From Candidatus Omnitrophota bacterium (GTDB taxonomy: Bacteria; Omnitrophota; Gorgyraeia; Gygaellales; Profunditerraquicolaceae): 42,106 nt of DNA. Position 1 is the first letter of the stretch; every line of letters starts with the position of its first letter. The stretch is taken from NCBI GenBank assembly GCA_028716705.1, contig JAQUPI010000002.1, positions 78,067 through 120,172 of the forward strand, written 5' to 3'. Position numbers and translations under genes: made by a program. Below are positions 20,451-42,040 of this stretch, piece by piece. The notes under the pieces are model-generated. The model worked only from the letters and a program-made list of their open reading frames with translations. It was not told the origin of the DNA and did no database searches.

Positions 20451-21391
20451 TGATTGTTGTTGGCCTTGCGCTGGTCTTTTACGTAGTTGCTTCTCCCGAG
20501 GCTTTTTGCGTAAGATTTTAGCTCCGCGCCGATCTCGCCTACCTGCGCCACATGCTGTATTCCCCTGAATTCGTTCGTGACCAGGCCGATAGAGACCGAA
20601 AGCAGGGGGATCTTTTGTTCCTTCCCTTGGCGATCGAGACCCATTATAAACCCGGCTTTTCTATCGGTTTCGTTATAAAACGAAGGGGACCTCTCATCGA
20701 ACTCGGCGATTATTTCTTTGCAGAGATTATCGGCTACATCGGGAGTGGTGACAATGACAAAGTCATCCCCGCCGATATGCCCGATAAAGTCCGAAGGATT
20801 GCCGATCTTTTGGGTGGATTGTATCAATATGCGGGCGGTTTCGCGGATCACTTCGTCTCCGTGTTCAAAACCGTATTTGTCATTATAGGCCTTAAATTTA
20901 TCCAGGTCCACGTAGCAGACCGCGAAAAGCGTCTTGCTTTCCAGGCGTGAAGATAGTTCATTCAAAATGGAGACATTGCCCGGAAGGCGCGTCAAAGGGT
21001 TGGCTTCCAGGTCCCTTGCCGTGCGCCTTAAGATCATGCGTATTCGCGCCAAGAGTTCCTTTGGCTCAAAGGGTTTAACCACGTAATCATCGGCGCCCGC
21101 GTCAATACCTCCGACTTTATCGCTCACTTCCCCTTTTCCGGTGACCATGATAATGGGTAAATGCCTTAAAAGCAGATCCTTCTTTGTTTCCCGGCAGACT
21201 TCCCGTCCGTTCATTTTCGGCATATTGTAGTCCAATAGCGCTAAATCCAGCGGTTTGGATTTAATGATCTTTAAGGCTTCTTCCCCGTCCATCGCTTTTA
21301 TAATTTCGTAATTCTCTTCGGAAAGAGTGATCTCCAGGACATCGAGTATGTCCGGGTCATCGTCAGCGATCAACACCCGCGGTTTAACCAC
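20441..21391 (-). CDS. Response regulator with GGDEF-type output domain
   Basis: This 316-residue protein has a receiver domain (1-125; DDD cluster at 10-12, phospho-acceptor D54 in LLDYNMP, the KPF lysine near 104). A GGDEF-type domain (about 140-316) follows with YVDLDKFKAYNDKYGFEHGDE and HIGGDDF. The signature is GGDDF rather than GGDEF, so the fourth residue is Asp in place of the usual catalytic Glu. Diguanylate cyclase activity is therefore uncertain. The start is GTG, close after the histidine kinase stop codon, with GAGGAGG upstream. The kinase is its likely cognate partner. Confidence 0.9.
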   Translation of the reverse strand: MVKPRVLIADDDPDILDVLEITLSEENYEIIKAMDGEEALKIIKSKPLDLALLDYNMPKMNGREVCRETKKDLLLRHLPIIMVTGKGEVSDKVGGIDAGADDYVVKPFEPKELLARIRMILRRTARDLEANPLTRLPGNVSILNELSSRLESKTLFAVCYVDLDKFKAYNDKYGFEHGDEVIRETARILIQSTQKIGNPSDFIGHIGGDDFVIVTTPDVADNLCKEIIAEFDERSPSFYNETDRKAGFIMGLDRQGKEQKIPLLSVSIGLVTNEFRGIQHVAQVGEIGAELKSYAKSLGRSNYVKDQRKANNNQKN

Positions 21392-30448: not shown

Positions 30449-31354
30449 ATGACCACGCGCAAAGCCGCGCCTGCCGTTTTGATTTTCTCAGCCGCTTTAA
30501 TCCTTTCCGCCTCTTCTGGTTGCAAAAAACTCGAAAACCTAAGCTCAAAAATGAAACCGGTTCAGCCCCCCAAGGGGACGATCATCGCCAAAGTAGACAG
30601 CCTCTTTGTTACCGCCGAGCAATTAGAGCAGGAAATTGAGAATTATAATCAGTTAATAGATAATCCCGCGGGAAAAATAACCACGCGCGAACAGAAACTA
30701 GCCTACCTGAACGACGAATTAATAAGGCGCTATTTATTCTATTTAGAGGCGAAGGAAAAGCGCATGGATGAGCGGCCGCAGACACAGGAGATCCTGCGTA
30801 CCCTGGAAATAAATGTTCTGGCCAACCAGCTCATACAGGATGAGATAGGGAATATGACCGTTACCTCGTCGGAAGTAGAGGATTTTTATAAAATCTATAA
30901 AGACCAGTATCAGCAGGCCGAAGAGAGAAAGGTCAGGGAGATCGCCGTTGATTCCGAGCAGGAAGCGAAAGACGCGTTAGTCCAATTGCTCCAGGGGGCG
31001 GACTTTCCCGGCGTAGCTGTCCAGCGTTCACGCGCGGAGAGCGCCGCCAAGGGGGGAGACCTGGGATTTATTAAAAGAGGCGACAGGGGGCCGGATTTCG
31101 CGGCTTTTGATGAAGTCGCCTTTTCCCGTTCTTTAGCCGCGGGACAGATCAGTAATATCTTCAAGCTGAAAGACAAGTATTATATTATCAAGGTAGAAGC
31201 GGTAAGAGGGGGCCAGGCAAGGCCTTTGTCAGAGGTATGGGACGAAATAAACAGAACGGTCTTATTCCTGAAACAGCAACAGAAACTTCAGGAGATATCC
31301 GCGAATCTGTCAAAAAAGAACAAGGTAACCATATACGACGATAAAATAAAGTAA
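30449..31354 (+). CDS. Parvulin-type peptidyl-prolyl isomerase lipoprotein
   Basis: This 301-residue protein has a lipoprotein signal with lipobox ASSGC (Cys25). A SurA-like helical N-terminal chaperone part (about 45-150) is followed by a parvulin rotamase domain (about 155-265): REIAVDSEQEAKDALVQLLQGADFPGVA, then GGDLGFIKRGDRGP and the terminal YYIIKVEAVR. It lies one base from cpaB, so it is probably a periplasmic folding factor for secretin or pilus components. SurA-, PpiC- and PrsA-like names are all possible. Confidence 0.88.
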   Translation: MTTRKAAPAVLIFSAALILSASSGCKKLENLSSKMKPVQPPKGTIIAKVDSLFVTAEQLEQEIENYNQLIDNPAGKITTREQKLAYLNDELIRRYLFYLEAKEKRMDERPQTQEILRTLEINVLANQLIQDEIGNMTVTSSEVEDFYKIYKDQYQQAEERKVREIAVDSEQEAKDALVQLLQGADFPGVAVQRSRAESAAKGGDLGFIKRGDRGPDFAAFDEVAFSRSLAAGQISNIFKLKDKYYIIKVEAVRGGQARPLSEVWDEINRTVLFLKQQQKLQEISANLSKKNKVTIYDDKIK

Positions 31355-32256
31355 TGCAAATGCAGCAAATCCAAAAGCGCCTTCCTTTGATCATTGCGAT
31401 CGCCTGCGGTATCTGGGCGATATTATTGCTGAATAGCTATCTTAAGCGCCGCGAGACAGAGATCTGGGAAAGGATACAGCAATCCCAGCGGCAGGCGCAG
31501 CCGTCCCGGGCCCCAGAGCAGACGGCGATTGCCCTGGTGGCACAGAAAGACATACCCATCCAGGTCCCTATTACCCCCGCGGACCTTGTAATCAAAGAGA
31601 TACCTGTCGAATATATTCAGCCCGGGTCAGTCACTTCGCTCGATGAGGTTATTGGGCAAATAGCGGTGGCGCCCATTGCCGCCGGAGAGCAGATAATGAG
31701 AAATAAACTGCTTCCTCCGGGGAAAATAGGCAAAACCTTGTCTGAGATCACTCCGCCCGGAAAAAGGGCCGTAAGCGTTCCGGTAGATAATATGGCGAGC
31801 ATCGCAGGCCTGATCCGGCCCGGAAATTTTGTGGATGTACTCGCTTTAATAGCGATTCCGCAGGCTCAAGGGGCCCATCCGGACAAGGCCGAGCCGCGTT
31901 TAATAACGCTCTTTCAGAATATCGAAGTTTTGGCAGTGGGCGGGGAATTCGCTCCGGCCGCGCAAGCTGAAAGACAGGAGCAGGCGAAGATTCCGACCGC
32001 TGCGGCCGCCGGGGCGGTTACCCTGGCACTCAGTCCTCAAGAAGGAGTTTTGCTCAGCTTTGTCCAGGAGCACGGCAAGATCAAATTAGCTTTACGTTCA
32101 TCTGATGACACCAAGGAAGAAGCGGTTAAACCCGCGGATTGGGACACTTTATTCCAGCATTTATATCCCAGCCAAGCAGGTCCTGGAGGCAAACAACAGA
32201 CGGTCGAGATTTACCGCGGCCTGAACAAGGAAATTGTGCCTTTGCTCGAAAAATGA
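31354..32256 (+). CDS. cpaB: Flp pilus assembly protein CpaB (RcpC)
   Basis: This 300-residue protein has an N-terminal membrane helix (LPLIIAIACGIWAILLLNSYL), then an SAF domain: ALVAQKDIPIQVPITPADLVIKEIPVEYIQPGSV and GQIAVAPIAAGEQIMRNKL. The RcpC-type core follows with GKRAVSVPVDNMASIAGLIRPGNFVDVLALI. CpaB is a periplasmic component of the Tad pilus. It starts inside the stop of the isomerase gene and overlaps cpaC by ATGA. Length and order match other tad loci. Confidence 0.92.
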   Translation: MQMQQIQKRLPLIIAIACGIWAILLLNSYLKRRETEIWERIQQSQRQAQPSRAPEQTAIALVAQKDIPIQVPITPADLVIKEIPVEYIQPGSVTSLDEVIGQIAVAPIAAGEQIMRNKLLPPGKIGKTLSEITPPGKRAVSVPVDNMASIAGLIRPGNFVDVLALIAIPQAQGAHPDKAEPRLITLFQNIEVLAVGGEFAPAAQAERQEQAKIPTAAAAGAVTLALSPQEGVLLSFVQEHGKIKLALRSSDDTKEEAVKPADWDTLFQHLYPSQAGPGGKQQTVEIYRGLNKEIVPLLEK

Positions 32257-33929
32257 AAAACACGCTAAAGATTTGCGCGGTTTTATCTTTCATTATACTT
32301 TGCGGTTTTAACCCGGCTTTTGTGCAGGAGCCGGAGAAAGAAGATTCCTTGTCCATGTACAAAGGCGAAGTCAAGGTCCTTACCGTGGACAATCCGACGC
32401 GAGTCGTGGTGAATAACCCGGCTGTAGCCGATGTCGCTTCAGTAGATAAGAAAGAATTGGTGATCGCGGGGAGGGGGCAAGGTTCCACCAGCTTGATCTG
32501 GTGGGATGCCCACGGCCAGCACTTGATTCAGCTTGTGGTTTTTCCGGAAGATATGGGTTCGGTCAAGAACAGCGTCGACAATATCTTGAAAGAAATGAAT
32601 ATCGCTACGGTTTCGGCAAGGGCGATCAACAGTGAAGGCAAAGTCCTGCTTTTGGGCACGGTCAAGACTCCCCAGGAACTGGAGCGGATCAATGTCGCGT
32701 TGGCTTCGAATAAGGCAAAGCTCATCAATGTCATCCAGGTAAAAGAAGAAGAGGCGGTAATAGGCATAGACGTGCAGGTCCTGGAACTGGATAGGGATGC
32801 CACTTCCACGTTAGGATTCAGCTGGCCGGGTTCGATCGATATTACCGAGGTGGGCTCTCCCGCGCTGAATACCGCCGCCGGTACAACTTGGGGGCAGCTC
32901 TTCAGAGTACTTAATGTAAGCAGGGACGCGTTTACTCTGACCCTGGACGCCTTAGCCCAGGAGGGTAAAGCGCGCATACTTTCTCAGCCGCAATTATCCT
33001 GCCAGAGCGGCAAAGAGGCAGAGCTATTAGTCGGCGGAGAAAAACCTATATTAACCACAACTGTAGCGGCCACAACCGGAGCAACGGGCACGAGCGTGGA
33101 ATACAAGGAATTCGGTATAAAATTAAAGATAAAACCTTCGGTCACCGAAGATAAAAAGATCAAACTGGCTCTGAACGTTGAAGTAAGCGAAGTGCAGACT
33201 CCGGAAATCCTCGGCTCAGCCAACTCTCCTACAGCCAGGGCTTACCCGCTTACCAAACGTAATGCCTCCACGGAATTGTTCCTTAATGACGGCCAGACCA
33301 TGGCCATCGGCGGCCTTAAAAAACAAAAAAGCGACGAGGATATCCGCAAAACTCCGATTTTAGGTGACGTGCCTTTGCTGGGGCTGGCTTTTAGGAAAAA
33401 GACCACCAGGATAGGCGGAGGAGAAGGAGAAAGAGGGGATGTTAATTTATTTATTACGCTGACTCCCACCATCCTGAAAGAAGCCCCCCCAAAGGCAGAA
33501 GCGAAATCCCAGGTAGAACCTGCGGCGGACGAGAAGCCTCCGGTAAAATCTAAGGCTAAAGTCGCGAAGGCCCCAGCTTCTGCCGCGAAAGAGCAAACAT
33601 CCGGATTCACCAGGAGATCCTACACTCGAAAAAGCCCGGCTCCGGTTGACGAATATGTCCGTCGGGTTTCCTATCTGGTACGCCGCAATTTCTCCTATCC
33701 TTGGGCGGCCAAACAAGCCGGGATAGAAGGTTCTGTAAAACTTGCCCTCAGGGTGGATAAAACCGGCCAATTATTGGATGTGGAAGTCAGGGATTCATCC
33801 GGTTACGCCGTGCTCGATGAAAACGCGGTGAACATCATTAAAAAAGTCGCTCCCTATCCGCCTTTTTCTCCGCAGATGGAACAGAAGGAACTCTGGATAG
33901 ACCTGCCCATTGTATATAAAAATAAATAA
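32253..33929 (+). CDS. cpaC: CpaC-type secretin with a fused TonB C-terminal domain
   Basis: This 558-residue outer-membrane secretin forms the Tad pilus channel. A signal peptide (about 1-24) is followed by the pilus N-domain (KVLTVDNPTRVVVNNPAVADVASV), a BON/N-domain, and the secretin core (about 180-400) with LNDGQTMAIGGLKK, TPILGDVPLLGLAFR and VNLFITLTPTIL. A proline/lysine/alanine-rich linker (about 405-460) leads to a TonB C-terminal domain (about 465-558): GIEGSVKLALRVDKTGQLLDVEV and SSGYAVLDENAVNIIKKVAPYPPFSP. I chose the ATG at 32253, coupled to cpaB. The fusion is unusual; the frame is continuous. Confidence 0.92.
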   Translation: MKNTLKICAVLSFIILCGFNPAFVQEPEKEDSLSMYKGEVKVLTVDNPTRVVVNNPAVADVASVDKKELVIAGRGQGSTSLIWWDAHGQHLIQLVVFPEDMGSVKNSVDNILKEMNIATVSARAINSEGKVLLLGTVKTPQELERINVALASNKAKLINVIQVKEEEAVIGIDVQVLELDRDATSTLGFSWPGSIDITEVGSPALNTAAGTTWGQLFRVLNVSRDAFTLTLDALAQEGKARILSQPQLSCQSGKEAELLVGGEKPILTTTVAATTGATGTSVEYKEFGIKLKIKPSVTEDKKIKLALNVEVSEVQTPEILGSANSPTARAYPLTKRNASTELFLNDGQTMAIGGLKKQKSDEDIRKTPILGDVPLLGLAFRKKTTRIGGGEGERGDVNLFITLTPTILKEAPPKAEAKSQVEPAADEKPPVKSKAKVAKAPASAAKEQTSGFTRRSYTRKSPAPVDEYVRRVSYLVRRNFSYPWAAKQAGIEGSVKLALRVDKTGQLLDVEVRDSSGYAVLDENAVNIIKKVAPYPPFSPQMEQKELWIDLPIVYKNK

Positions 33930-33934
33930 TCATT

Positions 33935-36115
33935 ATGGCCCAGACAATATCGATATTCAGCACTAAAGGCGGCGTAGGCCGGACATTTATCGCCGTTAAC
34001 CTGGCGGTAAGCCTCGCCGTAAAATTTAAAGGGAAAAAGATCCTTCTTCTGGATATGGATTCCGATCTGCCGGGTGATATGGCCAGGCTTTTGAATCTTA
34101 AACCGCAGAAAGTCTTGAATACGCTTTTGCGCGAAGGCCATAAAGAGGCGTATTCTTCCGACGAGCTTAAAGAATATATCATACGCGATCCTGCCAGCGG
34201 ACTGGATTTCGCGACTTTTACCCTTCACACAAAAGATATAATGGGCGTCCATTTAGACAGCGATTTCCTTTCGGCCATATTGGAAAACCTGGCAAAGGAA
34301 TACGATTTCATCATCGCGGACAATGGCCGGGCATTTAATAAGCTGCTCATCTCTTTCCTGGAACGTACTAATCTTATCCTGCTTGTAACTAATCCGGATA
34401 TGCTTTCCGTTTCCCAGGCGAAAGAGGCGATCGAGACGCTGCAGTCTTTATATTTTCCGTTAAAAATGATCAAGGTTATATTGAACCGGGCGGAGAGCCT
34501 TGGAGGGGTAACCTGGCGGGAGGTTAAGACGGTATTGCCCTGTGACATAATCGCGCGCATCCCTTCAGAAGGTAAAGTCATCGGTTCGGCTTTAAACCGT
34601 CAGGTACCGGTTATCCTCGACAGCCCGCGCAGCCGCGCGAGCGCCGCCCTGAATACTTTAGCCGAAGACCTGACCACGCATTATGAATATTTTATCCCCT
34701 TGCAGGAGCTGGAAGGGATCTTTTCCGGCCAGTCTGCGCCCAGGGAAAAGATCCTGGTTCAAGAGACAACTACCCTTGAATCGCTTTCTTTGCAGGGAAA
34801 GCCCAAGATAGAGAAAAAAGAGGGTCCTGAAGACAAGATCGATGAATTGAAGCAGCGCATCCATCGCCGTCTTATTCAGGAGTTGGATCTGCGCCGGCTG
34901 GACCGTGTAGCCGGAGACATGGCAAAAGTCGAAGGGCTGAGAGAGCGGACCATTAAGCTTGTCAGCAATGCCCTGGCGGAGGAATCCGGGATCCTGATTA
35001 CTTCCAGGGAGGAGCGCGAACGCATCATCAAGGAAATAGTCGATGAAGCGCTTGGGTTAGGGCCATTAGAAGACCTGATCAACGACGAGGAAATCAGCGA
35101 CATATTAGTCAACAATAAGAACCAGATATATGTGGAAAAACGCGGGAAATTACAGCAGTCTAAAAAAAGGTTTGTTTCGAATGAACAGGTGCGTCAGATA
35201 ATTGAGCGCATAGTAGCGCCGCTTGGCCGTAGGATAGATGAGTCAATGCCTATGGTGGACGCGCGCCTTGCCGACGGCTCGCGCGTGAATGCGATCATCC
35301 CCCCGCTTTCTTTGACCGGGCCTACCTTAACTATAAGGAAATTCGGCGCTGAGCGCCTGAAGATTTCAGACCTTGAAAGGCTCAACGCGGTAAATGATAC
35401 AATGGCGCAATTCCTTAAGGCGTGTGTTTTGTGCCGGAAGAACGTCATAGTTTCCGGAGGGACAGGCTCAGGCAAGACTACTGTCCTGAATGTGCTTTCA
35501 GAATTTGTTCCTGACGGCGAAAGGATAATTACCATCGAAGACGCCGCGGAATTAAAACTGCATCATGAACACTGGATAAGGCTGGAATCGCGTCCCCCGA
35601 ATATCGAGGGTAAAGGCGCGATCTCAGTACGGGATCTGTTCCGCAATTCATTGCGTATGCGGCCTGACCGTATTATCATCGGCGAATGCCGGGGCCCGGA
35701 AACGCTGGATATGCTCCAGGCAATGAATACCGGACACGATGGCTCAATGACCACGCTGCACGCGAATTCTACCCAGGATGTGTTATCCCGCCTGGATTCA
35801 CTTATCCTTATGAGCGGTATTGAAATTCCTTTGCGCGCGATCCGGGAGATGATCGCATCCTCCATAGATGTTATTGTACACACCGCCCGCCTTTCTGACG
35901 GCTCCCGTAAAGTGACGCAGATAACCGAAATCACCGGCATGCTCGACGAAGTGCACATCGGCCTGCATGATATATTCGCCTTTCATCAGGTAAATGTGGA
36001 TGAACGCGGCAAGATCAACGGCAATTTCGAACCCACCGGCGCCATACCTACCTTTTTTGAGGAATTCCACAGGCGTGGCATTCCTTTGTCCGCGGATTTA
36101 TTTAAGAAAAAATGA
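33935..36115 (+). CDS. TadZ-TadA fusion: ParA-like ATPase joined to CpaF-type pilus ATPase
   Basis: This 726-residue protein joins two normally separate Tad proteins. Residues about 1-260 are a MinD/ParA-like TadZ/CpaE part with deviant Walker A FSTKGGVGRTFIAVNLA and LLLDMDSDLPGD; it would localise the assembly machine. After a linker comes a CpaF/TadA motor (about 300-726): DELKQRIHRRLIQELDLRRLD, LINDEEISDILVNNKNQIYVE, Walker A VSGGTGSGKTTVLNVLSEF, IEDAAELKL, and the MRPDRIIIGECRG box. The frame is uninterrupted. It overlaps the DUF192 gene by ATGA. The fusion enforces 1:1 stoichiometry. Confidence 0.92.
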   Translation: MAQTISIFSTKGGVGRTFIAVNLAVSLAVKFKGKKILLLDMDSDLPGDMARLLNLKPQKVLNTLLREGHKEAYSSDELKEYIIRDPASGLDFATFTLHTKDIMGVHLDSDFLSAILENLAKEYDFIIADNGRAFNKLLISFLERTNLILLVTNPDMLSVSQAKEAIETLQSLYFPLKMIKVILNRAESLGGVTWREVKTVLPCDIIARIPSEGKVIGSALNRQVPVILDSPRSRASAALNTLAEDLTTHYEYFIPLQELEGIFSGQSAPREKILVQETTTLESLSLQGKPKIEKKEGPEDKIDELKQRIHRRLIQELDLRRLDRVAGDMAKVEGLRERTIKLVSNALAEESGILITSREERERIIKEIVDEALGLGPLEDLINDEEISDILVNNKNQIYVEKRGKLQQSKKRFVSNEQVRQIIERIVAPLGRRIDESMPMVDARLADGSRVNAIIPPLSLTGPTLTIRKFGAERLKISDLERLNAVNDTMAQFLKACVLCRKNVIVSGGTGSGKTTVLNVLSEFVPDGERIITIEDAAELKLHHEHWIRLESRPPNIEGKGAISVRDLFRNSLRMRPDRIIIGECRGPETLDMLQAMNTGHDGSMTTLHANSTQDVLSRLDSLILMSGIEIPLRAIREMIASSIDVIVHTARLSDGSRKVTQITEITGMLDEVHIGLHDIFAFHQVNVDERGKINGNFEPTGAIPTFFEEFHRRGIPLSADLFKKK

Positions 36116-36453: not shown

Positions 36454-36469
36454 GGACAGCGCCCTATTT
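36448..36469 (+). repeat. REP palindrome at the 3' junction of DUF192 and the transposase
   Basis: AAATAGGG and CCCTATTT form a perfect 8-base stem around ACAGCG. Read on the minus strand the core is AGGGCGCTGTCCCT, the same as the three copies at 37205-37273 but inverted. It contains the stop codons of both convergent genes. Confidence 0.8.
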
Positions 36470-37144
36470 CTTGGTATTGTTCGGTCGCCTACCTTTCGGT
36501 AGTTCAAATAATTTCCGCTTGAATTTTGATTCCAGCGTTTCAATAAAGGCAGCCGCCCCTAAAGGCCGTCCGGAAAGCGTACATTTTCTTATATGCCGTA
36601 ATGAGCTTTCTTCTTCCGCAAAATCAATGTATTTTTTCCATGAATCATTGGACATGCCTATGATCTCAAGGAAATTTCCAAGTTCAATTGGAAGGCGGGA
36701 ATTCTTATCGATATGGGGCATTGCGCTTGACCAAGGCCACTGCCAAGGTTTTTCAACCAGCCCTGCGCGCACAGGATTTCTTTCGATATAACGTCCAGCA
36801 AGTATAAGGTGCGGTTCATCTAATACGCAAGAATAGAAACGCCCTTGCCATAGATGTCCTTTTTGTTTCGACTTACTATTAAAGTACTGAGAATAACGCA
36901 TATGAGCTGCATTAAATGTCCTGGCCAGGGAATCAGAGACATTTGGAATAGCGATAAAATGAATGTGGTTTTGCATAAGACAGTACACCAAAATGGAGAG
37001 ATTGTATTTAAGACTATATTCTTGAATCCAGGCTAAGTAGAAGTTTTTATCGTTAGCATTAGAAAACACATCTTGTTGATAATTTCCTCTTTGAGTAATA
37101 TGGTGAGGTAATCCGACGGCAACGATTCTAGCCATTCGAGGCAT
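36464..37144 (-). CDS. REP-associated tyrosine transposase (Y1 transposase, IS200-like)
   Basis: This 226-residue protein has the Y1_Tnp fold. It opens with PRMARIVAVGLPHHITQRGNYQQDVF, has the HUH metal pair in LMQNHIHFIAIP, the likely nucleophile region HMRYSQYFN, then KGHLWQGRFYSCVLDE, RYIERNPVRAGLV and WPWSSA. GAGGAGG lies before its ATG. The gene is bracketed by REP-like palindromes, as expected for a RayT that recognises such hairpins. It appears complete and may be active or domesticated. It separates the pilus core operon from the pilin array. Confidence 0.93.
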   Translation of the reverse strand: MPRMARIVAVGLPHHITQRGNYQQDVFSNANDKNFYLAWIQEYSLKYNLSILVYCLMQNHIHFIAIPNVSDSLARTFNAAHMRYSQYFNSKSKQKGHLWQGRFYSCVLDEPHLILAGRYIERNPVRAGLVEKPWQWPWSSAMPHIDKNSRLPIELGNFLEIIGMSNDSWKKYIDFAEEESSLRHIRKCTLSGRPLGAAAFIETLESKFKRKLFELPKGRRPNNTKK

Positions 37145-37369: not shown

Positions 37370-38236
37370 ATGCTTAAAAATTATAAATTAACTCAAGAAA
37401 TCGAAGATTTTATTGTTGAAGAAAAGAAAAATAACTCTAAGCTATCCTGCCGGGGCCTTACTATCTTAATTCAACAAAAATTCCAAAAGGAGATCTCCAA
37501 ATCTTTGATCAATAACGTAATAAAAAAGAATAATCTCAGCGGCCCCGTCGGCAGGCCCAGGACCCGTGAAATTATAGTCAAAAAAGAGACGGAAAAAGAA
37601 ATAGAGAAGAAGCCGGTACCGCCCCTACCCGGTAACTACTTGCTGGAGAATGGCGGGTTTTTTCTGCTAAAGGCAGCTGACCTAAGATTGGGCCTGACTT
37701 TCCATCTTGCGGACGGCATTTCCGGCCGTATCCCTGAAATAACCAGCCAGATCATCGAAACGCTGATTTACTCTCCGCACTATAAAGATAAGAAGAGCCT
37801 TGCTTTTTTGGTTGAAGAAGAGGTAGCCGAAGAAACATCAAAGCGATTCTCAGAGCGGCTAGCGGGCATTCCTTTGGGTGAGCTTAGGTCTCTGGCTAAG
37901 GAAATCGATATCAATACTAACTTCAACGATATCAATGAGTTATGGGAAAACAGCATCTCCCGGCTGAGCTCTTTTTTATCACATTATTTCCCCGGAGAAT
38001 TCCAATTTATGGAATTTGACGCCATGTTCCAGCGTTTTTTTTCTCTTGCCGCCAAACTTGAATCTAAACCAGAACTTCTTACAATCCAGCTCTTCCACCC
38101 CAAAGATTTCCCTTGGATCAATGATGCCGTTTGGTATGAAGGTTTTTCTCATGCCTCACAGAGCCTTAATGAGGCCCGGATCTTTACTCCTAAAAAGCAA
38201 CTGATCAGGATAAATCCTAAAGTAGAGATTTTATAG
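37370..38236 (+). CDS. Orphan protein with N-terminal helix-turn-helix, function unknown
   Basis: I do not recognise a named family for this 288-residue protein. The first 65 residues look like a transposase- or resolvase-type helix-turn-helix: KKNNSKLSCRGLTILIQQKFQKEISKSLINNVIKKNNL, ending in GPVGRPRTR, a minor-groove-like basic hook. A charged linker (KKETEKEIEKKP) leads to a globular part with GFFLLKAADLRLGLTFHLADGIS, with no DDE, HUH or serine-recombinase residues visible. No signal or membrane helix is seen. It could be a domesticated transposase N-terminus acting as a regulator of the adjacent pilin array. That role is a guess from position only. Confidence 0.75.
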   Translation: MLKNYKLTQEIEDFIVEEKKNNSKLSCRGLTILIQQKFQKEISKSLINNVIKKNNLSGPVGRPRTREIIVKKETEKEIEKKPVPPLPGNYLLENGGFFLLKAADLRLGLTFHLADGISGRIPEITSQIIETLIYSPHYKDKKSLAFLVEEEVAEETSKRFSERLAGIPLGELRSLAKEIDINTNFNDINELWENSISRLSSFLSHYFPGEFQFMEFDAMFQRFFSLAAKLESKPELLTIQLFHPKDFPWINDAVWYEGFSHASQSLNEARIFTPKKQLIRINPKVEIL

Positions 38237-38267
38237 GGAAACGCTTTCCATAACCCCCTTAATTCGC

Positions 38268-38295
38268 TTGACATCGCAACTATATATGATATATT
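38268..38295 (+). promoter_or_regulatory. Promoter of the pilin array
   Basis: A perfect TTGACA (38268-38273) and TATATT (38290-38295) are 16 bases apart. Transcription should start near 38302, at the first base of the riboswitch-like structure. The bases between 38237 and 38267 hold nothing I can support. Confidence 0.7.
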
Positions 38296-38301
38296 TTAAA
38301 T

Positions 38302-38401
38302 GCCAGTTCGAAAAGGTTATTCTGAAAGAAAAAGTGCAGGATAGCAAAGCCACGGAGAAAGAGAATTTAATTTGTATGAACCGGGTTGCCGAAATTGGTA
38401 A
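38302..38401 (+). ncRNA. Cyclic-di-GMP-I (GEMM)-like riboswitch aptamer
   Basis: The leader contains GATAGCAAAGCCACGG at 38340-38355 and CCGGGTTGCCGA at 38381-38392. These are the two conserved joining segments of GEMM RNAs (GCAAAGCCACGG ... CCGGGTTGCCG). GCCAGTTCG (38302-38310) pairs with CGAAATTGGT (38390-38399), giving a closing P1 helix with one bulge, exactly where GEMM P1 lies. A GAAA occurs at about 38324 in the first hairpin. The 5' part departs from the canonical consensus, so it may be a variant (c-di-GMP or cGAMP class). The 3' segment is shared with a terminator. Confidence 0.62.
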
Positions 38402-38412
38402 CCAGGTTTTTT
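38381..38412 (+). terminator. Riboswitch expression-platform terminator
   Basis: CCGGGTTGCC (38381-38390) pairs with GGTAACCAGG (38397-38406) with one mismatch and a 6-base loop, directly followed by six T. The 5' arm is the conserved aptamer segment, and the 3' arm includes P1 pairing bases. Aptamer and terminator therefore exclude each other, so ligand binding would allow read-through (an ON switch). Confidence 0.8.
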
Positions 38413-38428
38413 AATTTAGGAGTTTCTA

Positions 38429-38608
38429 ATGACTTTAAAAAAGTCTAAAGAAGATTGGGCTCAGGGTCAGTCAATCTTTGAATACTTCATCTTAACGACC
38501 GTCGTAGTGGCGGTCGTTTTATTTTTTGCGAACACTCCGTATTTCAAAGGCATTAAGGCATCTTGCGCGAATGCCTTTGACCGCGCGGTGGGGGAGATAT
38601 TGAAATGA
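38429..38608 (+). CDS. Flp-type pilin-like protein 1
   Basis: A 59-residue protein with a prepilin signature: leader ending in DWAQG, then QSIFEYFILTTVVVAVVLFFA, followed by a short soluble tail with one cysteine (KASCANAF). Cleavage is expected between G and Q, and E at +5 is present. AGGAG lies 6 bases upstream of the ATG, just after the riboswitch terminator. It overlaps the next gene by ATGA. As the first gene of the array it may be a minor pilin. Confidence 0.82.
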   Translation: MTLKKSKEDWAQGQSIFEYFILTTVVVAVVLFFANTPYFKGIKASCANAFDRAVGEILK

Positions 38609-38754
38609 GAAGGGGCCAAAGCATAATCGAATACGCGTTATTGATCGGCATAGTGGCGGCGGCATTCTTGGCTATGCAGCTTTATATGCAGCGTTCAGTT
38701 CAGGCGAATTTTAAACTTATTGAGGATCAGGTAAATGCGGAGGCAAAGCCTTAA
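38605..38754 (+). CDS. Flp pilin-like protein 2
   Basis: A 49-residue pilin with MRRG, then QSIIEYALLIGIVAAAFLAMQLYMQRSVQ and a short acidic/polar tail. It has the length and form of a classic Flp major pilin. It starts inside the stop of pilin 1. The motif MQLYMQRSVQ is the first instance of the MQIYxKRxxQ block that recurs in the long pilins downstream. Confidence 0.85.
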   Translation: MRRGQSIIEYALLIGIVAAAFLAMQLYMQRSVQANFKLIEDQVNAEAKP

Positions 38755-38779
38755 AGTAAGACAAGGAGGTGTGAGGGCT

Positions 38780-38965
38780 ATGCGCAGAAATAAGGGTCAG
38801 AGCATACTGGAATACGTCATAGTTTTAACCGCGATCGTGGCGGTGATAGTTATAGGGGCAGCTAAGTTTGCCAGCAAGGACAAGGGCAGCGGCGTAGGCA
38901 AATTGATGGACAGCGCGGGCAGTAAAATAACTACATCTACGGGTAAGATCGCCGAGATCAAATAA
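38780..38965 (+). CDS. Flp pilin-like protein 3
   Basis: A 61-residue pilin: MRRNKG, QSILEYVIVLTAIVAVIVIGAAKF, then a glycine/serine/lysine-rich tail (KDKGSGVGKLMDSAGSK). I use the ATG at 38780 because AAGGAGGTG precedes it; a longer frame starts at 38735 inside pilin 2. This and the next gene form a pair lacking the MQIY block. Confidence 0.85.
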   Translation: MRRNKGQSILEYVIVLTAIVAVIVIGAAKFASKDKGSGVGKLMDSAGSKITTSTGKIAEIK

Positions 38966-38976
38966 CAGGAGGTCTT

Positions 38977-39147
38977 ATGTTAAAGCGCAAAAAGGGCCAG
39001 AGCATATTGGAGTATGTGGTTGTCCTCGTCGCGATAGTCGCGGTCATTGCCTGGGCGGCCAAGGAAATAATCGGCAAGGCGGTAGGAAAGGGGCTTGATG
39101 ATGCCCGGACCACCGTCGGTAATGCCGCGGATAATTTGGCAAAATAA
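38977..39147 (+). CDS. Flp pilin-like protein 4
   Basis: A 56-residue pilin: MLKRKKG, QSILEYVVVLVAIVAVIAWAAKEIIGK, then a short helical tail. It is the closest paralogue of pilin 3, sharing QSILEYV and IVAVI. CAGGAGG precedes the start by a short distance. It is the last of the four short pilins. Confidence 0.88.
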   Translation: MLKRKKGQSILEYVVVLVAIVAVIAWAAKEIIGKAVGKGLDDARTTVGNAADNLAK

Positions 39148-39165
39148 GCTTTCGGGAGGTGAAAA

Positions 39166-39522
39166 ATGCTATTTAATCGCAAGGGTCAGAATACAGCCGA
39201 ATACGCGATACTCATCGCGCTGGTTGTGGCCGTCGCAGTAGCCATGCAGACCTACGTAAAAAGGAGCATGCAGGGCGGGGTAAAGTACACAGTGGATAAA
39301 CTTAAAAAGGGAGAAACGGGTACAGGCCAGTACGAGCCGTACTACCTGCAGTCCCAATACCAAACGACTCAGGGAGCATTTCAGGATATAGAAGAAACCA
39401 AATTGGGCGGCGGTGTTGAACGTACTTACGCGGGCCAGGGAGGCTCAGGCGAAAAGAAGACTACCCGTGCCGGTTATCAAAAAACAACCGCTTATGAAGA
39501 ACCTCAACAGGGAGGTGAATAA
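39166..39522 (+). CDS. Long Flp-type pilin-like protein 5
   Basis: This 118-residue protein begins MLFNRKG, QNTAEYAILIALVVAVAVAMQTYVKRSMQGG, with the pilin helix of the short pilins, and adds about 75 residues rich in Gly, Thr, Gln and Tyr (GQYEPYYLQSQYQTTQ, GQGGSGEKKTTRAGY). GGGAGGTG precedes the start. The polar tail could be an exposed, possibly modified, surface domain. Confidence 0.85.
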   Translation: MLFNRKGQNTAEYAILIALVVAVAVAMQTYVKRSMQGGVKYTVDKLKKGETGTGQYEPYYLQSQYQTTQGAFQDIEETKLGGGVERTYAGQGGSGEKKTTRAGYQKTTAYEEPQQGGE

Positions 39523-39523
39523 C

Positions 39524-39892
39524 ATGACCAGGAACCAGGGCCAGAGCACACTGGAATACGCCTTGATCATCGCCGTAGTAGTTGGCGCGCTCCTGGCGAT
39601 GCAGATATATTTCAAGCGCGGAGTACAGGGTAAGCTGCGTGAAGCGACCGATGACATCGGCGGGCAATATTCAGCGGGTAATGTTCAAGCTAAATATATA
39701 ACCACTCAGGCAGGAGACAAGGTTACTAAAGAAATGGTAGGGACCGAAGAGGCCGGAGGAGAAGGCGCTATAAGGACAGAAGTTATCACGGCCGCGGAGG
39801 TGACAACCAGCGCGAGCGGCGAGGGTGCCGAAAAGATCACCAAGACGTTCAAGCAGGAATTAGACGAACAGGGCTTGACGCCGAAGCAATAA
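39524..39892 (+). CDS. Long Flp-type pilin-like protein 6
   Basis: This 122-residue protein: MTRNQG, QSTLEYALIIAVVVGALLAMQIYFKRGVQGKLREATDDIGGQYS, then a Thr/Glu/Ala-rich tail. I use the ATG at 39524, since GGGAGGTG lies just before it and the pilin leader fits; an upstream frame start at 39413 overlaps pilin 5. It is a near-duplicate of pilin 8 in the first 50 residues. Confidence 0.87.
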   Translation: MTRNQGQSTLEYALIIAVVVGALLAMQIYFKRGVQGKLREATDDIGGQYSAGNVQAKYITTQAGDKVTKEMVGTEEAGGEGAIRTEVITAAEVTTSASGEGAEKITKTFKQELDEQGLTPKQ

Positions 39893-39904
39893 GGGGGTGA
39901 AGAG

Positions 39905-40273
39905 ATGAGGAGATTTAATAAAAAGGGTCAAAATATGGCAGAGTACTCCATCCTTATTGCCCTGGTAATTGCCGCGGCCATCGGCATAAAAGTCTACGTC
40001 CAGAGAGGGATCCAGGCGAGGATACACGATGAGTCTGACGAGATGTTTAACGCGGTAAAGGACGCGGATTGGTCCCAGATCAGCACGGTCGCCGTAACCG
40101 CTAACAAGCAATTTGAGCCTTCAGATTTTTCTAAGAAGACGACTACACAGACCGTCCAGGATACCGAAGATTACACCCTGGAGAAAGAAGGAACAACCGC
40201 ACAGACAAGCACTAAGACAACCAAACAAGCCGCAGGCGATTATGAACAGTATAATAAGCCTACGGAACAATAG
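39905..40273 (+). CDS. Long Flp-type pilin-like protein 7
   Basis: A 122-residue protein: MRRFNKKG, QNMAEYSILIALVIAAAIGIKVYVQRGIQAR, then a tail rich in Thr, Lys and Gln (TTTQTVQDTEDYTLE, TSTKTTKQ). AAGGGGGTG lies before the ATG. It pairs with pilin 5 (both QNxAEY) in the way pilins 6 and 8 pair, as if two-gene units were duplicated. Confidence 0.87.
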   Translation: MRRFNKKGQNMAEYSILIALVIAAAIGIKVYVQRGIQARIHDESDEMFNAVKDADWSQISTVAVTANKQFEPSDFSKKTTTQTVQDTEDYTLEKEGTTAQTSTKTTKQAAGDYEQYNKPTEQ

Positions 40274-40298
40274 ATTTGTTTAAGGAGGTGAATTCTCC

Positions 40299-40628
40299 AT
40301 GTTGAGAATGCAAAAAGGTCAGAGTACGCTGGAATACGCCTTAATAATCGCTGTAGTGGTCGGAGCGCTTTTGGCGATGCAGATCTATATGAAGCGCGGT
40401 ATGGAAGGCAGGATGCGCAAGGCCGCTGACGATATCGGAAAGCAGTTTGACGCGGAAAAGACATACGTCCATCATACTACGACAAAAACCGGGACAACGG
40501 TAGAAGAGACGGCTTCGGGAGCGACTACGGTTTATAGCGGCGGTTCCCCCGCAGGCGCGGCGCAGGGCGCGGCAGAAGAGACCAAATTCAGCGGTAAGGA
40601 AGTCGTGGACAGCCTGGATAAATATTAA
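40299..40628 (+). CDS. Long Flp-type pilin-like protein 8
   Basis: A 109-residue protein: MLRMQKG, QSTLEYALIIAVVVGALLAMQIYMKRGMEGRMRKAADDIGKQF, then a Thr/Gly/Ala-rich tail (TTTKTGTTVEETASGA). The first 30 mature residues are nearly identical to pilin 6, a sign of recent duplication. AAGGAGGTG precedes the start. Confidence 0.88.
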   Translation: MLRMQKGQSTLEYALIIAVVVGALLAMQIYMKRGMEGRMRKAADDIGKQFDAEKTYVHHTTTKTGTTVEETASGATTVYSGGSPAGAAQGAAEETKFSGKEVVDSLDKY

Positions 40629-40632
40629 GGCG

Positions 40633-41013
40633 ATGAAAATGACCAGAGGGCAGAGTATAAACGAATATAGCCTGTGCTTAGCCATAATATTAATCGCCTT
40701 TCTTGGGGTTAATATCTATGTCAAGCGCGGGCTGCAAGGCCGATACAGGGATATGGTCGATGAAACGACTAATGCCATCTCCGCCCAAACGCAATATGAA
40801 CCGTATTACGCGAAAACAACAACAACGGTGAATATGGCCAGGACCGTCGATATGACCACAAGCGAAATAGTCGACGGTAAAGTGGTTAATCCAGGCAAAG
40901 TAAGCAAGAATATCTCCGGCGATCCTACAACGGTGAAGAATATAGACGCGGAAGCCGCGGGTATGGTAGGGAGCGAATTAGAGCCGGGATCCAAGATCAT
41001 TAAGGTGCAATAA
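40633..41013 (+). CDS. Long Flp-type pilin-like protein 9
   Basis: A 126-residue protein: MKMTRG, QSINEYSLCLAIILIAFLGVNIYVKRGLQGRYRDMVDETTNAIS, then a Thr/Val/Asp-rich tail. YEPYYAKTTTTV echoes the YEPYY segment of pilin 5. Its ATG lies 4 bases after pilin 8, and its stop codon shares one base with the start of pilin 10. The Cys in the membrane helix is unusual among the set. Confidence 0.85.
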   Translation: MKMTRGQSINEYSLCLAIILIAFLGVNIYVKRGLQGRYRDMVDETTNAISAQTQYEPYYAKTTTTVNMARTVDMTTSEIVDGKVVNPGKVSKNISGDPTTVKNIDAEAAGMVGSELEPGSKIIKVQ

Positions 41014-41390
41014 TGAATCATAGGGCGCAAAGCTTGATCGAATACGGGTTGATCCTTGGGGTAGTCACTGTCGCCTTGTTGAGCATGCAAATTTATTTCC
41101 GGCGCGGGATACAATCCGTGGTTAAAGTTACCGCGGATGACTTCGGCCCCCAGGGCGAGGCGGTAGGTAATATAGAAGTTGCAATTAAGAAAAATATATA
41201 TGGCAAAGCGCAGGACGGCGGTAAAGGAAAGCTTATCGTTGATACAAAGGGCGTTGTTCAGGCGGTTACTAACAAGACGGGCGAGGATAGCGGAAGTATC
41301 CGAACGGAAACAACCTCTTCAAATACCGCCAGCGGAGGAGTTGCGGGGGTCTCAGTGGTCGGGGATTATAAGGACAGGAAGGTAGACTAA
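41013..41390 (+). CDS. Long Flp-type pilin-like protein 10 (Ala at -1)
   Basis: A 125-residue protein: MNHRA, QSLIEYGLILGVVTVALLSMQIYFRRGIQSVVKVTADDFG, then a tail of Lys/Gly/Thr/Ser. The residue before the cleavage site is Ala, not Gly, while Q and E(+5) are kept. It overlaps pilin 9 by one base. Confidence 0.85.
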   Translation: MNHRAQSLIEYGLILGVVTVALLSMQIYFRRGIQSVVKVTADDFGPQGEAVGNIEVAIKKNIYGKAQDGGKGKLIVDTKGVVQAVTNKTGEDSGSIRTETTSSNTASGGVAGVSVVGDYKDRKVD

Positions 41391-41391
41391 G

Positions 41392-41796
41392 ATGAGAATA
41401 TCAGGAAGCCGCAGATTAATGGCGCAATCTATCCTGGAATACGCCATGGTTATTGCCTGCCTGGCCTTAGCGATGTTCGCAATGCAGATCTACGTCAAGC
41501 GCAGTATACAGGGAAAATTAAGGACTGCGGCCGACGAGATCGGGGAGCAATATTCGGCTAAACATACTACTTCTAAATTGAACCAGGTTATATCTACCCC
41601 TGCCGGGGAGAATATTACTACCGTCGGTGCGCCAATGTTTATAGATGTGGAAATTACCGATCCTAAAACCGGCGCGAAGCGTATCGAAAGAAGAGAAATA
41701 ATGGAGATCACCAGAACAGAGCCGATGACTATGAGCGTTGAAAAAGGGAGTTTCGAAGAAACGGGAAAATTGTCCGATGAGAAACTATTCGACTAA
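41392..41796 (+). CDS. Long Flp-type pilin-like protein 11 (Ala at -1)
   Basis: A 134-residue protein: leader MRISGSRRLMA, then QSILEYAMVIACLALAMFAMQIYVKRSIQGKLRTAADEIGEQYS, and a Thr/Ile/Glu-rich tail. The block KLRxAxDxIGxQYS matches pilin 6 closely. Ala replaces Gly before the cleavage point. The 3' end overlaps the next gene by 20 bases. Confidence 0.85.
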   Translation: MRISGSRRLMAQSILEYAMVIACLALAMFAMQIYVKRSIQGKLRTAADEIGEQYSAKHTTSKLNQVISTPAGENITTVGAPMFIDVEITDPKTGAKRIERREIMEITRTEPMTMSVEKGSFEETGKLSDEKLFD

Positions 41797-42040
41797 AGAT
41801 CCAATAAATACGGCAAAGGCCCAGGCAACGATTGAGTTTGGCATTGCCCTGGTTTTAGCGGTTTTATTCCTATTCTTAAGCGCGAATCTCTTTGTTTGGC
41901 TGAACCAGAATATAGTCAAGCGTCAAAGAGATTATGAGCAGACGCGCGTGGAATCTGCTAGTAGCAACCCCGGAAAGGTAGATTTTTACACTCACTATAA
42001 GCCGATGAATGTTTTTACCTCCGGAGGCTCGAAGAAATGA
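41777..42040 (+). CDS. TadE/pseudopilin-like protein 12 (Ala at -1)
   Basis: An 87-residue protein: NTAKA, QATIEFGIALVLAVLFLFLSANLFVWLNQNIVKRQRDYEQTR, then a short tail. The QATIEF start with a longer helix and R-Q-R-x-Y-E resembles TadE-like minor pilins more than Flp. I use the ATG at 41777 rather than an upstream frame start at 41738, which lies inside pilin 11. It overlaps the last gene by ATGA. Confidence 0.78.
   Translation: MRNYSTKDPINTAKAQATIEFGIALVLAVLFLFLSANLFVWLNQNIVKRQRDYEQTRVESASSNPGKVDFYTHYKPMNVFTSGGSKK

Follow-up and report, generated by a model that had tools for sequence, protein, structure and literature searches.

The window, meaning the whole stretch of 42,106 nucleotides that was analysed, runs from position 78067 of contig C2 to the contig end within a 1.87-Mb Omnitrophota draft genome. 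Its distal part carries Tad machinery genes, a leader and an array of prepilin-like genes, arranged as follows (window positions):

31354–36115, + strand: Tad machinery genes (RcpC/CpaB, secretin, fused ParA/TadA-type ATPase), from Pfam
37370–38236: 288-aa protein, between the Tad machinery genes and the leader
38237–38249, no strand: palindrome GGAAACGCTTTCC upstream of the −35 box, an exact match in the window
38268–38295, + strand: sigma-70-type promoter TTGACA-16-TATATT with TG before the −10 box, 11 of 12 consensus bases
38302–38310, + strand: P1 5′ strand, which folds with 38390–38399; P1 strands covary across 21 variants
38311–38315, + strand: junction AAAAG with G38315 as the G20 equivalent (alignment via model R2 and intermediate RNA L074)
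38316–38324, + strand: P2 5′ strand GUUAUUCUG (fold; both sides vary in each of the six modelled P2 pairs)
38325–38336, + strand: P2 loop AAAGAAAAAGUG, no GNRA tetraloop (sequence and fold)
38337–38345, + strand: P2 3′ strand CAGGAUAGC (fold)
38346–38355, + strand: AAAGCCACGG, the A47-equivalent junction and P3 5′ strand (AGCC 38348–38351, CGG 38353–38355; alignment and fold)
38356–38380, + strand: P3 terminal loop, AU-rich and without a tetraloop receptor; A38380 at the G83 position (sequence)
38378–38412, + strand: intrinsic terminator 38378–38409 with T-run 38407–38412 (fold and sequence)
38381–38387, + strand: P3 3′ strand CCGGGUU, also in the terminator 5′ arm (fold)
38389, + strand: C92 equivalent (alignment; ligand role taken from known GEMM-I)
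38390–38399, + strand: P1 3′ strand, overlapping the terminator 3′ arm (fold)
38418–38422, + strand: Shine-Dalgarno sequence AGGAG (sequence)
38429–38608, + strand: gene 1 of the prepilin-like array, coding for 59 aa (15 of the 108 genomes in the family, this one included, have a homologue)
38605–42040, + strand: 11 more complete prepilin-like genes (ORFs; Pfam Flp_Fap and class III signal matches below cut-off only)

An IS200-like transposase gene (Y1_Tnp, 36464–37144) separates the Tad machinery genes from the pilin operon. The sequence-only reading had counted 13 pilin-like genes in the array; 12 stand as complete prepilin-like ORFs, but the thirteenth (AQALTELAIF...) begins near 42038 and runs off the end of the window. 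The placement of the leader before a Tad/Flp pilin array, proposed in the same reading, is repeated in the closest relative that has the operon (G034, leader L034), where the genes continue with TadE-like, large TadG-like and TadB/TadC-like proteins, named by sequence appearance. The nearest homologue of the operon is in JAPLLU010000042.1.

The sigma-70 promoter claimed previously is present, with the −35 box at 38268–38273 and the −10 box at 38290–38295 on either side of a 16-nt spacer, and the transcription start predicted at about 38302 falls on the P1 5′ strand. Near-identical copies of GGAAACGCTTTCC lie at a similar distance upstream of the −35 box at the pilin promoters of G034, G089, G006 and several g13 genomes, and the palindrome recurs also at pilin promoters that have no GEMM leader; it is probably an operator for a regulator. 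The 288-aa protein, for which Pfam gave no match, is a candidate for this regulator. Its N-terminus looks like an HTH, and a homologue is encoded directly upstream of the pilin leader in G034, as is one in G006 that is recognised by its C-terminus.

Nascent RNA extending to 38399 folds into P1, AAAAG, P2, AA and P3 (38348–38355/38381–38387), and its minimum-energy fold contains the closing helix 38302–38310/38390–38399, exactly as had been read from the sequence; all of the leader parts described there lie within a few bases of where they had been placed. The fold of the whole leader has z = −3.4. However, a 9-bp P2 (38316–38324/38337–38345) was absent from that description, and is likewise absent from the Rfam alignment. 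The core blocks GCAAAGCCACGG (38344–38355) and CCGGGTTGCCGA (38381–38392) occur as a pair at a single place in the window, and 100 dinucleotide shuffles never produced the pair. We take G38315, A38346 and C38389 to be the counterparts of Vc2 G20, A47 and C92.

At the gathering threshold, Rfam finds only three tRNAs in the whole window. The c-di-GMP-I family (RF01051), the best of its Rfam clan for the leader, scores 22 bits against a gathering cut-off of 35 and misplaces P2. We rejected the Rfam placement of P2 within 38325–38345, since P2 then shrinks to 2 bp and the 9-bp helix obtained from folding and covariation is disregarded. The leader shares with RF01051 the P1-P2-P3 three-helix junction (present by fold, covariation and an independent model), the AAAG before P2, the AAAGCCACGG and CCGGGUUGCCGA blocks and, by alignment, the ligand-contact positions equivalent to G20, A47 and C92. 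In contrast, its P2 is continuous and lacks the 3x3 internal loop, and therefore C44, whose partner G83 is replaced by A38380; it also has a short P3 and neither a GNRA loop nor a CUAAG/UAUG receptor pair. The c-di-GMP-I-GGC family (RF03167) has in common with the leader a P3 without the CUAA receptor, but its consensus has a GNRA-capped P2 with a 3x3 loop, and its gathering cut-off of 59 bits is not reached by the leader. RF03167 is nevertheless the best Rfam model for several other RNAs with a continuous P2 (22.8–36.2 bits), which do not approach this cut-off either. The leader thus lies outside the Rfam c-di-GMP-I family as defined.

Searching with the pattern AAAGCCACGG-N8-38-CCRGGTTGCCGA gave matches in 16 of the 128 genomes of the order, whereas a reversed control matched in none. 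These matches are of two kinds, either canonical, with GGCAAACC...GGGACGC around P2, or with one continuous P2 helix set flush between AAAG and AAAGCC; RNA L074, whose otherwise canonical P2 has CC/GG and not GC/GC at its base, bears out this register. When the leader was used as a DNA query, most matches were short and unrelated, except in G034, G018, G064, G065, G077 and G089. Since MAFFT misaligned P2 in full leaders, models were built from loop-trimmed sequences, and model R2 was made from six continuous-P2 RNAs found in other genomes, so that neither the window leader nor its G034 homologue contributed to it. It assigns 45.0 bits to the window leader (E = 2.6e-10; nothing else in the window exceeds 16.8 bits) and 34.7 bits to that of G034 (E = 2e-7), E-values that are rough because of the loop-trimmed input and a short calibration. 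The Rfam score would suit a terminator and promoter in which GEMM blocks occur by coincidence, but the E-value of the independent model, the empty control in 128 genomes and the homologue of the leader that G034 has at this operon refute such a chance resemblance, to which we give next to no credence. GEMM descent, as claimed for the locus, therefore holds, even if membership of the Rfam family does not, and we are nearly certain that the leader is a real, conserved, GEMM-derived element with ON-type architecture.

Covariation supports the continuous P2. In a set of eight sequences all six modelled pairs are changed on both sides, and none of 500 shuffles reaches the score; these P2 strands had been picked by us to pair, and a strand-swap test was therefore made as well. 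Across 21 variants, whose effective number is smaller because several come from one genome or from sister genomes and are nearly identical, the own strands of P1 and of P2 pair better than swapped ones, and none of 10,000 permutations is as good for either helix. While these flanking helices change in sequence, the unpaired AAAG before P2 and AA before AGCC are kept.

Loss of the internal loop usually goes together with loss of G83. The base before CCGGG is G in all 48 canonical RNAs but A or C in 14 of 18 continuous-P2 RNAs (Fisher p = 4e-11, with kinship not accounted for; both counts are hand-corrected for a spurious match at position 1481 of L082 and for L081, which the automatic classification had misclassed). 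A GNRA loop is likewise missing from most continuous-P2 RNAs, the two exceptions being in G006 (GUAA) and G064 (GCAA). A subtype with P2 GUUNUYC...AUAGC/GUAGC and a P3 reduced to its base unites the window leader, that of G034 and L118, a second RNA of G006. Model score alone does not define the group, because G378 and G278, both outside f1, score above 40 bits and yet proved on inspection to have a canonical P2; they were rejected as members. On this comparative evidence, we assign the leader to a remodelled ('continuous-P2') GEMM-I subclass not listed in Rfam and known so far from about 20 copies, spread over 10 genomes that belong to a single Omnitrophota family; none of the copies tested reaches any Rfam cut-off. 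Our literature search, which was not exhaustive, returned no paper joining c-di-GMP, riboswitch and Omnitroph*, and a prior description of the subclass is possible.

The terminator, which had been placed at 38381–38412 with a conserved GEMM block as its 5′ arm, is found at 38378–38409 followed by the T-run, and this arm is CCGGGTTGCC. Some bases of P3 and P1 also belong to the terminator, which makes aptamer and terminator mutually exclusive; the leader has the arrangement of a transcriptional ON switch, in which an aptamer helix and the 5′ arm of an intrinsic terminator ahead of the gene overlap. In computed nascent folds the aptamer is preferred up to 38405 and the terminator from about 38408. 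For the full leader the drawn structures have energies of −21.3 (aptamer) and −26.4 kcal/mol (terminator), and ligand binding could tip a predicted balance of about 5 kcal/mol. By inspection, nearly all of the approximately 20 variants continue with a 3′ arm able to pair with CCGGGUUGCC and with a T-run, which, together with the nascent folds, lends support to the ON-type logic suggested earlier. RNA polymerase would start near 38302 and make P2, P3 and then P1. Bound at the three-way junction through the G20, A47 and C92 equivalents, c-di-GMP would hold CCGGGUU in P3 and the following CGAAAUUGGU in P1, so that the terminator is blocked and polymerase reads on into the pilin array. In the unbound state, CCGGGUUGCCG would pair with UGGUAACCAGG and transcription would halt at the T-run before the Shine-Dalgarno sequence. 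A comparable GEMM ON switch precedes Geobacter pilM, where aptamer and terminator are mutually exclusive and the terminator sequesters the ligand-pairing C (PMC9262584). C92-type bases pair with the ligand in known GEMM-I (compare PMC9262584). The pilM RNA (GEMM-Ib) shares with the leader the ON logic, this exclusivity and a pilus-type gene downstream, but unlike it has a canonical aptamer and a cGAMP ligand, whereas the leader has a G20 equivalent. Beyond the GEMM descent, the helices, the terminator overlap and the gene context that we observe, we infer the identity of the ligand, its binding and the direction of control, and with these the leader would probably be a c-di-GMP ON switch for pilin transcription.

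As regards the ligand, the genome has 11 GGDEF matches, and where a GHxxGD stretch is present it carries the aspartate, except in one divergent protein with Asn; the serine of Hypr (cGAMP-type) enzymes occurs in none of these stretches. A divergent GGDEF domain (GGDDF, GFEHGD) is encoded in the window itself (20714–20998, minus strand). No EAL domain was found in the genome, so that any breakdown of c-di-GMP needs another enzyme. Three clear RF01051 copies (58–79 bits) in the genome, L003, L002 and L001, precede genes for a type IV pilin, a filamentous-haemagglutinin-like exoprotein and a cyclic-nucleotide-binding-domain-like protein, respectively, as judged by sequence appearance, and each of 59 relatives searched has at least one c-di-GMP-I RNA. 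The choice between c-di-GMP, cGAMP and a variant had been left open; cGAMP appears less likely, as the G20 equivalent is G and the genome has no GGDEF with the Hypr serine, and c-di-GMP is the most likely ligand given this and the retained equivalents of A47 and C92. The same switch logic might instead serve another ligand, be it cGAMP, a dinucleotide that is linear or modified, or a novel compound, as the surroundings of the pocket (3x3 loop, C44, G83) are altered and position 20 only tunes GEMM selectivity (PMC9262584). With the three contact positions unchanged, no Hypr serine, and ordinary c-di-GMP-I RNAs elsewhere in the genome that precede genes of pilin and adhesin type, such a change of ligand seems rather improbable.

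GEMM-I is a model for the reading of cyclic dinucleotides by RNA, and its tetraloop-receptor and C44–G83 contacts are regarded as important. We take the G79–C35 pair of the Cd1 riboswitch to be equivalent, in Vc2 numbers, to C44 (P2 loop) and G83 (bulge before CCGGG). This Cd1 pair has been reported, and mutation of Cd1 A24-26, which maps to the tetraloop, abolished binding (PMC9262584). The absence of the GNRA loop, its receptor and the C44–G83 contact, like the 22 bits with RF01051, thus counts against a c-di-GMP switch. A GEMM that has lost binding while its competing hairpins are kept could act as a ligand-blind attenuator, set by transcription speed, a protein or temperature, as the loss of the two tertiary contacts and the state of the pilin leaders in some relatives would suggest. 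In five g13 genomes the pilin leaders have no GEMM at all, having lost it on this account, and the operon can therefore do without one. Those of G006 and G089 look decayed by eye; the G006 leader keeps only CACGG and overlapping hairpins, in which GGUAGCCA/UGGCUACC oppose the terminator. However, the unpaired AAAG and AA junction bases persist while both flanking helices turn over, the variants precede intact secreted-protein genes, and the joint loss of C44 and G83 from many copies suggests remodelling more than decay; we therefore regard a ligand-blind attenuator as unlikely. It is possible, if somewhat doubtful, that the continuous-P2 RNAs are a distinct GEMM-derived class in which tertiary structure was rebuilt after loss of both peripheral contacts, and whose affinity or ligand may have shifted.

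GEMM RNAs are found in the pilin leaders of G011, G063, G071, G074 and G077 (34–51 bits) and, in another family, before a pilin in G036/G043. In this group, many pilin arrays but not all are thus under the putative control of a GEMM-type leader. Five GEMM-I pilin leaders (L045, L046, L047, L049 and L053) have a non-GNRA P2 loop with conserved NGGAGG or GGGAGG and, in P3, a long insertion with GGUC; a contact between loops may stand in for the tetraloop-receptor there. The G006 pilin leader (L042, reverse complement, on G006:C3) shows apparent decay to a bare antiterminator/terminator, GGUAGCCA/UGGCUACC versus ACUGGCUACC/GGUAACCAGU.

Tad pili of Omnitrophota have been discussed as a sign of predation or parasitism, in an account that mentions neither riboswitches nor c-di-GMP (PMC10066038). 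If the proposed switch is real, production of Tad pili in this phylum would be tied to c-di-GMP, and database cut-offs would miss part of the Omnitrophota c-di-GMP regulon. A subclass that drops both contacts and yet keeps the junction and the switch would, moreover, show which parts are dispensable and how the scaffold can be rebuilt. Continuous-P2 RNAs precede Flp pilins in the window and G034, and elsewhere mostly proteins with signal peptides. In L114 (G065:C26) and L115 (G064:C23) at least five GEMM-type RNAs, canonical and continuous mixed, occur within about 17 kb, most of them before secreted-protein genes, a putative dense c-di-GMP regulon of surface proteins.
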